Source: Methanocalculus alkaliphilus (GTDB lineage Archaea > Halobacteriota > Methanomicrobia > Methanomicrobiales > Methanocorpusculaceae). From it: DNA of 64,000 nt. Each line of letters starts with the position of its first letter. Position 1 is the first letter of the stretch. The position numbers and the translations under genes are program-made. Below, piece after piece: positions 24,539 through 27,027 of the stretch. The notes under the pieces are model-generated. The model was not told where the DNA came from, did no database searches, and saw only the letters and a program-made list of their open reading frames with translations. The stretch lies in NCBI RefSeq assembly GCF_024170505.1, contig NZ_JALJYG010000003.1, forward strand, positions 124,001 through 188,000, given 5' to 3'.

Positions 24539-24850
24539 TTAGCCGAAGAGGGCACCAAGGCCGGCCATTCCGGACTCTTCTTCCTCTTCCTTCTTCTCTT
24601 CTTCTTCTTCCTCTTCAGCAGGTGCAGCGGCGGCTGCAGCTGCAGGTGCAGCGGCGGCAGCGGCTACTGGTGCAGCAGCTGCCTTGCTGATGGCTTCCTC
24701 AACATCAACGCCATCAAGGGCGGCGACGAGTGCCTTCACACGGGATTCGTTAACAGCGATACCTGCGGCAGAGAGAACTGCCTGGACGGATTCTTCATCG
24801 ATTGATTTTTCTGCAGAGTGCAATAAGAGAGCAGCGTAGATATACTCCAT
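24539..24850 (-). CDS. rpl12: ribosomal protein P1 (archaeal L12)
   Basis: A 103-residue archaeal stalk protein. The N-terminal dimerisation and P0-binding part starts [21 protein letters not shown] long Ala-rich hinge (about 58-80) follows, then a Glu/Lys acidic segment and the conserved C-terminus [11 protein letters not shown] that recruits elongation factors to the ribosome. It is encoded 10 bases after P0 and preceded by GGTGA. It is the last gene of the L11-L1-P0-P1 unit. Confidence 0.97.
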
Positions 24851-24860
24851 AATTCGTCAC

Positions 24861-25709
24861 CTATTCTACTAATGCTTTGATTGTGTTCATCTGTCTGTAT
24901 GCCTTTGAGATGATCTCGTCAATGACGGCCTTCTCATAGATAGCAGCCTCTATACCGAGACCGCGTGCATCACGGACAGCCTTTCCAATGATCGCCTCGA
25001 TGGTAAACGCAGTCGGATAGGCTGCATTAACCGAGAGATTGAATGCCTGCTGGACAGCAAGAACGAGCTTGTTATAATATTCAGTCTCGTCGATGCCAAG
25101 TACGTCGGGGAAGTACAGCTGATCCTGATACAGAGCGACGTGAAGGGAGAGACCAACATCCATCGGTGCAACACCGAGTTTTGCAAGAATTCCGACCTGT
25201 TTACGGTCGACAGGCTCTCCAGCCTTTACAATCGTCTTTGTCTCTCGAATCTTGACCTTTCCGCCTTCGATGGTCGCAGGGATGCCTGCCTGCTGGAGCT
25301 CACTGACAATCGGACCTGGCTTAAAGCTGGTTGGTCCTTTTGCAACAACGATATCCTCAGGAGCGATCTCGCCGGCTTTGGCGGTACGCTTCGTCTTCGT
25401 CTGCTCAAGGGCTTTGAAGAGCTTGAAAGGATTATCATTTGTGAAGATCAGTGCAGAGTGGCCGGTGATATGTTCTTTCAGATCCTCAAAGCTGCCACCA
25501 AGTTCTGTGAACGCATGCTCAATGAGCGTGTTTCGCATCACTTTGATCTCTGTGGTAGCCCGAAGATTCCGACGAATCTGCTGGAACTGTGTAGCGGGAA
25601 TGCCGTATGTGTCAATGAGACCCACAAGGCCATACTCCCCTACGTTCTTCTTCACTTCTTCAATCTCGTCCCGCTTCCACTGAGGAAGGTGGCGTGTGTA
25701 CACTGCCAT
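24861..25709 (-). CDS. rplP0: ribosomal protein P0 (archaeal L10), without acidic tail
   Basis: A 282-residue stalk base protein. Its rRNA-binding domain begins MAVYTRHLPQWKRDEIEE and includes TTEIKVMRNTLIEHAF. The inserted domain follows (about 105-180), then the helical spine for P1 dimers (AYPTAFTIEAIIGKAVRDARGLG...). It ends at MNTIKALVE, with no Ala/Glu-rich linker and no terminal GLGALFG-type tail, both usual in archaeal P0 of about 310-340 residues. The stop is real: P1 begins 10 bases later with its own ribosome site. The ATG directly follows the L1 stop. Confidence 0.95.
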   Translation of the reverse strand: MAVYTRHLPQWKRDEIEEVKKNVGEYGLVGLIDTYGIPATQFQQIRRNLRATTEIKVMRNTLIEHAFTELGGSFEDLKEHITGHSALIFTNDNPFKLFKALEQTKTKRTAKAGEIAPEDIVVAKGPTSFKPGPIVSELQQAGIPATIEGGKVKIRETKTIVKAGEPVDRKQVGILAKLGVAPMDVGLSLHVALYQDQLYFPDVLGIDETEYYNKLVLAVQQAFNLSVNAAYPTAFTIEAIIGKAVRDARGLGIEAAIYEKAVIDEIISKAYRQMNTIKALVE

Positions 25710-26351
25710 CTAGATCACCCTCACTGCAGGGCCCATCGTCGTCTTGACGAAGACCGAGCGGATATTCTGTGGCCCCTGATCAAGGCTTGACTCAACTCTC
25801 TTCAGGATAGTGTTGATATTTTCGGTTATCTGTTCAGGCGACATCTCAGTCGTCCCGACCTTGGCCGAGAAACTCATCTTATCCTTTGTCCGGACCCTGA
25901 TGGAACCACGCAGACGCTCAACAATGGGTCTGATATCCTGTCCCGGTGGGATCGGCATCGGCATCTTGCCGCGTGGACCAAGTCGTGGACCTAACCATCG
26001 GCCAACAAGTGGCATAACGGCAGTCTCTGCAAGGAAGAAGTTGTACTCACATGCAACCTGTCTGGCTTCACGTGGAGCACCTCCCAGGCGTTCGATCTCC
26101 TCGGGGCCGATGATGATATCAACACCCGCTTCTTTCGCCTGTGAAGTTATTTCTCCCTTGCCCAAGACCGCGATCTTTTTGGTGCCTGCACTCTCAGGCA
26201 GAAGAATCGTCTCATCAATACGGTTTTTCGGCTGGGCCATGTCGATGTTCTTGAGGTTGACCGTCAGGTCGACACTCTCACGGAACTTCCGCTCTGGCGC
26301 CAGTTCGATAGCCTCGGATACGGCCTTGAGAATTTGGGTTTTATCAACCAT
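25710..26351 (-). CDS. rpl1: ribosomal protein L1
   Basis: A 213-residue protein of the L1 stalk, which helps release E-site tRNA. It starts MVDKTQILKAVSEAIELAPERKFRESVDL and contains the conserved GRWLGPRLGPRGKMPMPIPP and SFSAKVGTTEMSPEQI. In archaea L1 also represses its own mRNA by binding a site that mimics its rRNA site. The leader of this gene contains such a candidate (see 26364-26398). The Shine-Dalgarno GGAGG overlaps the base of that hairpin. Confidence 0.97.
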   Translation of the reverse strand: MVDKTQILKAVSEAIELAPERKFRESVDLTVNLKNIDMAQPKNRIDETILLPESAGTKKIAVLGKGEITSQAKEAGVDIIIGPEEIERLGGAPREARQVACEYNFFLAETAVMPLVGRWLGPRLGPRGKMPMPIPPGQDIRPIVERLRGSIRVRTKDKMSFSAKVGTTEMSPEQITENINTILKRVESSLDQGPQNIRSVFVKTTMGPAVRVI

Positions 26352-26363
26352 TTGATGATGCCT

Positions 26364-26398
26364 CCATAGTCTTCGACCGCGTATGCGATCTCCTATGG
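26364..26398 (-). promoter_or_regulatory. L1-binding-site-like hairpin in the L1 leader (candidate autoregulatory element)
   Basis: Read on the minus strand as RNA: CCAUAG, then GA, then GAUCGC, loop AUAC, GCGGUC, then GAAGA, then CUAUGG. This gives a 6-bp stem, an asymmetric internal loop of GA opposite GAAGA, and a second 6-bp stem with one G-U pair. The L1 site on rRNA and on Methanococcus vannielii mRNA has the same arrangement, with GA on the 5' side and a purine-rich G-A strand on the 3' side. The final GG of CUAUGG is the start of the GGAGG ribosome site of L1, so L1 binding would block translation. The identification is mine from pattern. Confidence 0.6.
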
Positions 26399-26887: not shown

Positions 26888-27027
26888 AGTATCACCATGC
26901 CGACAGCCCATACAAGGGCTCTCAGCTGTGGTCTGTATATGTCAACGGCAGATAAGATAAAGATGATGGGATATCATCGGCTGAGATGAGAAGAGAGAGG
27001 AGAAGAGGAACTCCCCGGCGCAGAGAA
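26888..27027 (-). promoter_or_regulatory. leader and promoter region of the L11 operon
   Basis: A 140-base gap on the minus strand between spt5 and L11. It holds AGCCC-loop-GGGCT (26905-26920), a perfect five-base hairpin close to the L11 start, and AT-rich TATA candidates around 26933-26941 (ACATATAC) and 26950-26963. Either TATA would allow an independent L11 transcript. Confidence 0.4.

Follow-up and report, generated by a model that had tools for sequence, protein, structure and literature searches.

The 59-nt gap between the genes for ribosomal proteins L11 and L1 in Methanocalculus alkaliphilus (L11 end 26411, L1 ATG 26351) holds a conserved RNA hairpin that is very likely an autogenous L1 operator, i.e., a predicted translational repressor site for L1, P0, and P1. 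It was found in a window of 64,000 nucleotides (contig NZ_JALJYG010000003.1, positions 124,001 to 188,000), to which all coordinates below refer. This analysis established the structure of the hairpin, its conservation and covariation, its constant location over the ribosome site of L1, and its resemblance to the rRNA motif.

On the minus strand of the window, the gene order is FtsZ (assigned from its sequence), SecE, Spt5/NusG, L11, L1, P0, and P1. The L1 protein is 99% identical to that of M. chunghsingensis (L062), the closest named record, and is clearly homologous to the L1 of PDB 1u63, an L1-mRNA complex. A separate small hairpin, AGCCC-UUGUAU-GGGCU (minus strand, 26905-26920), is present in the Spt5-L11 gap, upstream of L11 and 17 nt from its likely start (26887).

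Read along the minus strand from 26398 to 26364, the RNA of the L1 hairpin is CCAUAG-GA-GAUCGC-AUAC-GCGGUC-GAAGA-CUAUGG. Its internal loop is asymmetric between the two helices: the 5' side is GA, and the 3' side is longer and rich in purines. The 3' end of the hairpin lies 12 nt upstream of the L1 ATG, and relatives carry the element in the equivalent place. The first two G of the GGAGG sequence preceding L1 are within the closing stem. An earlier note on this DNA had proposed two 6-bp stems around a GA/GAAGA loop at 26364-26398, with the first bases of GGAGG inside the closing stem. Its coordinates, stems, and loop are exact, and the 3' strand of the stem and GGAGG (26365-26361) do overlap, by two bases.

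Features of the L1 operator region in the window, and loci in the rest of the phylum that lack the element or carry variants of its surroundings
Feature	Position or loci	Strand	Remarks
L1-site-like hairpin, two 6-bp stems around asymmetric GA/GAAGA internal loop	26364..26398	-	
Closing stem, 5' strand CCAUAG	26393..26398	-	Invariant in the order except for rare C to U at first/second position; CCGUAG in the rest of the phylum
Internal loop, 5' side GA	26391..26392	-	Second base A in every aligned sequence; first G/A/C/U
Upper stem-loop GAUCGC-AUAC-GCGGUC	26375..26390	-	GAUCGC 26390-26385, AUAC 26384-26381, GCGGUC 26380-26375
Internal loop, 3' side GAAGA	26370..26374	-	
Closing stem, 3' strand CUAUGG	26364..26369	-	
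Shine-Dalgarno-like GGAGG of L1	26361..26365	-	9 nt before ATG at 26351
Ribosomal protein L11 gene	26411..26887	-	NCBIfam NF002232, E 1.8e-69; upstream of hairpin
Ribosomal protein L1 gene	25710..26351	-	NCBIfam NF003244, E 1.6e-87; presumed regulator and target
P0 (L10) gene	24861..25709	-	ATG directly 3' of L1 stop codon (0 nt)
P1 (L12) gene	24539..24850	-	Starts 10 nt past P0
Loci without leader element (f10, f15, f12, one f9)	L188-L198, L178, L179, L186, L155		
Inserted-hairpin loci (f8, f18), upstream of L1	L165-L167, L170, L171, L173, L175, L176		
Loci with second hairpin GAGACAGGC...GCCUGUUUC	L181, L183-L185, L199-L205		

The RNA of the L11-L1 gap folds at -18.3 kcal/mol, compared with -7.6 +/- 2.05 kcal/mol for shuffled sequences (z -5.2; 0 of 200 shuffles as good), and folding of the plus strand gives no signal (z -0.19). 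When both strands of the window were scanned for an xA loop with G-C pairs on both sides and a G...A 3' loop, a single site was returned, which is the L1 hairpin. Likewise, a covariance model built from 19 relatives (R1) scores 61 bits at the hairpin and 10.6 bits at the next best place in the window. Since the window sequence is itself a member of R1, the independent weight rests with the relatives. No Rfam family matches the hairpin, either at the gathering threshold or at E values up to 10.

Within the order Methanomicrobiales, R1 matches at E below 1e-4 in 140 of 150 genomes, and all 35 genera are present among these matches. The assemblies of the remaining 10 lack an L1 gene or, in one case (G112), contain an L1 match that stops at a contig end, so that the hairpin is found in 140 of the 140 sampled genomes with an assembled L1 5' region. 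Direct reading of 110 loci, among which some species may occur twice, gives the same picture: the element precedes L1 in 109, and the last one is cut by a contig end. In six of these loci, as well as in G118, GGAGG is replaced by GGAGCG.

Outside the order, we inspected 64 L1-upstream regions of genomes from other families of the phylum Halobacteriota, and 49 of them carry a homologous element in the same place before L1, with the stem CCGUAG/CUACGG. The precise form is CCGUAG or UCGUAG paired with CUACGG or CUACGA in 47 loci, while the two further loci have the stem around a long insert. A wider model, R2, matches 79 of 118 genomes of the phylum, which is a lower bound because most of the short haloarchaeon-like forms and of the inserted forms, recognizable by eye, escape R2. 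The leader element is absent from all 11 sampled members of family f10, from f15 (two loci) and f12 (one), and from one f9 genome. A site of the Methanococcus kind was sought in the first part of the L1 gene in these lineages and was not found. The earlier note had made its reading depend on conservation of the stems and loop in relatives, and both are conserved, at the counts just given. It had also presented the GA/GAAGA loop and the location in the L11-L1 gap as features of this site. Both descriptions are correct for the window, but the loop is not strict in relatives, where the 5' side is (G/A/C/U)A and the 3' side is usually 4-8 nt of the form G...A, and the leader position is seen across the phylum rather than being peculiar to Methanocalculus.

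Several families show variations around the element. In f8 and f18, the 3' side of the L1 loop contains one inserted extra hairpin, or three in the case of L166 and L167; these forms are multi-branch junctions in which the outer stem is retained. In haloarchaeon-like loci, the L1 element is directly preceded on its 5' side by another conserved hairpin (GAGACAGGC...GCCUGUUUC). A TATA-like sequence, CUUAAAAUA, is common to f9 loci (L145, L147, L149, L153, and L154), about 25-40 nt upstream of the element, which suggests that L1 may have its own promoter in the L11-L1 gap of that family. The L11-L1 gap of the window has no such TATA-like sequence.

Covariation indicates that the hairpin structure is kept by selection. 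The closing stem is 100% paired across 49 aligned sequences, its third pair being G-C in 31 (outside the order) and A-U in 18 (inside the order), and its first pair C-G, U-G, or U-A. In the upper stem-loop, the tip is variable and the first pairs, G-C and then A-U (or G-C), are kept; 33 sequences have A-U as the second pair and 11 have G-C, and two-sided changes are also seen at pairs 3 and 4. At 0.278, the covariation score exceeds both that of shuffled alignments (0.164 +/- 0.011; 0 of 500 as high) and that of slid controls (at most 0.126). In the upper stem, the alignment of the haloarchaeon-like rows is faulty, an effect that counts against the structure and not for it. The compensatory changes for which the earlier note had proposed to look are thus present, in the form of the order-versus-rest switch from G-C to A-U and the A-U/G-C swaps of the upper stem. 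Judged by family code, the closing-stem switch was probably a single event at the base of Methanomicrobiales; the swaps in the upper stem, in contrast, are spread over several families. The letters that never vary in the alignment are UAG-xA-G ... A-CUA-G. Since five of the six closing-stem pairs hardly vary, an invariance beyond what pairing by itself calls for, an additional constraint may be at work on this stem.

The organism's own 23S rRNA offers a direct comparison. Its helix 77 reads GAUGG-GA-GAC...GUC-GCCGUUGAGACA-CCAUC, and it shares with the leader the xA 5' loop, the G-C pairs below and above it, and the A before the closing strand. The likeness to the rRNA site proposed in the earlier note holds as a motif match, not as identity: the xA loop and the flanking G-C pairs correspond, but the 3' loop of the leader (5 nt) is much shorter than that of helix 77 (about 12 nt, with helix 78 above), and the two RNAs differ at closing-stem position 2. 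In most other families, the 23S sequence, GGUAG-GA-GRC...A-CUACC, is closer still to the corresponding leader, GUAG-GA-G...A-CUAC. Helix 77 was located across genomes by DNA search (at about 2424-2490 in L031). Counting from the loop, the fourth pair of the closing stem is A-U in the two RNAs of Methanomicrobiales and G-C in the two RNAs of nearly all others. A strict rule of rRNA-mRNA co-change at this position is broken by the haloarchaeon-like genome G238, with A-U in its 23S and G-C in its mRNA, and the pattern represents at best one event. Run on genomes, the leader models R1 and R2 did not pick out helix 77 of 23S rRNA. Four extra R2 matches in genome G030 (E 0.006) fall in another part of 23S rRNA (about base 1300 of L031) and were treated as chance.

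These features can be combined into a mechanism in which the hairpin would mimic the L1 site of 23S rRNA. Free L1, in surplus once the rRNA sites are filled, would bind the internal loop and the flanking G-C pairs, locking the closing stem, in which the first bases of GGAGG lie, and thereby denying the 30S subunit access to the L1 start. Translational coupling, which is plausible given how closely the three genes follow one another, would bring P0 and P1 down along with L1. L11, which lies upstream of the hairpin, is probably not controlled by the site. Binding, repression, coupling to P0 and P1, and the escape of L11 are steps that we infer. GGAGG would be complementary to the anti-Shine-Dalgarno sequence expected at the 16S 3' end; the matches to GGATCACCTCCT found in the genome are not visibly 16S ends. 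In the fold predicted without L1, the A of GGAGG is mostly free and its last GG is in part paired; about 6 kcal/mol would be needed to open GGAGG. Since AGG is only partly paired, the fold by itself would occlude the site weakly, and L1 should supply the block.

Two other readings start from the overlap with the ribosome site. A chance hairpin might be conserved merely through the ribosome site, the bases of its 3' strand being part of GGAGG, but the 5' strand is outside that site and is nevertheless conserved, changing together with its partner. Covariation already refutes this explanation, to which we give practically no credence. Instead, the hairpin could do no more than determine how strong the L1 ribosome site is at its basal level, either as a passive damper of translation or as a temperature-sensitive hairpin, in both cases without a protein ligand. 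The overlap with GGAGG and the energy needed to open it would suit such a role, which, however, has no need for an invariant xA/...A loop and fixed flanking pairs across many families of the phylum, and we regard it as very improbable.

A very unlikely explanation, too, is that the element controls the same genes but responds to a ligand other than L1, for instance the P0-P1 complex, an Lsm protein, or an RNase. L1 as the ligand is a prediction from sequence, the closing stem is more invariant than the L1 structural motif seems to need, and some lineages have extra hairpins inside the element. Against another ligand, the conserved letters are those common to the 23S L1 site, and the element always abuts L1 itself. 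An L1 operator thus remains the reading that we strongly favor.

Autoregulation by uL1 through rRNA mimicry has been reviewed for bacteria and archaea (PMC10931766). Few cis-regulatory RNAs have been confirmed in archaea, and the r-leader survey of Eckert and Weinberg in 2020 (PMC7247131) names no L1 leader in its set of archaeal motifs. In Methanocalculus, the element stands before L1, and its probable targets are L1, P0, and P1. The leader of the Escherichia coli L11-L1 operon likewise lets L1 repress its own mRNA through 23S mimicry, but that site precedes L11 and controls L11 and L1. The L1 regulatory site of the Methanococcus vannielii L1-L10-L12 mRNA is said to have been described by Mayer in 1998, Koehrer in 1998, and Nevskaya in 2005 (the latter with PDB 1u63). 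It reportedly shares with our element the L1 protein, the gene trio, and an AG-GA-G...C-G...A-CU internal loop, but is located about 30 nt inside the L1 coding region, whereas in Methanocalculus the site is in the L11-L1 gap, over GGAGG. Kraft, in 1999 (Genetics 152:1363), reportedly placed L1 sites inside the L1 gene in Methanococcus, Methanobacterium, and Pyrococcus, and in the leader in Archaeoglobus fulgidus and halophilic archaea, i.e., before L1 as in Methanocalculus. The leader position is thus not new, and such control was already known in other archaea. The elements that we found in other families (CCGUAG-GA...A-CUACGG) are homologous to that of the window, and Methanomicrobiales differ from the Archaeoglobus and halophile leader sites in having CCAUAG/CUAUGG and an upper stem that starts with the paired strands GAUC/GGUC. 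What is added here is fixation throughout the order, homology across the phylum, covariation, losses in particular lineages, and the inserted-hairpin variants.

The present work contributes a covariation-supported model with exact coordinates, and its alignments could found an Rfam family, while the forms with inserted hairpins lend themselves directly to testing what L1 requires of its site. A classical but little-sampled archaeal control, detailed in Methanococcus, is extended to an entire order and to the greater part of a phylum. More tentatively, and with slightly less than even confidence, we suggest that the leader L1 operator might be an ancestral, phylum-wide RNA of Halobacteriota, without an Rfam model, that diversified by a change from a G-C to an A-U closing pair in the Methanomicrobiales mRNA and at the matching position of 23S helix 77, by insertion of one to three hairpins in the 3' side of the L1 loop in some families, and by several lineage losses. 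If this is true, one could trace how an rRNA site and the mRNA element that mimics it evolved together.
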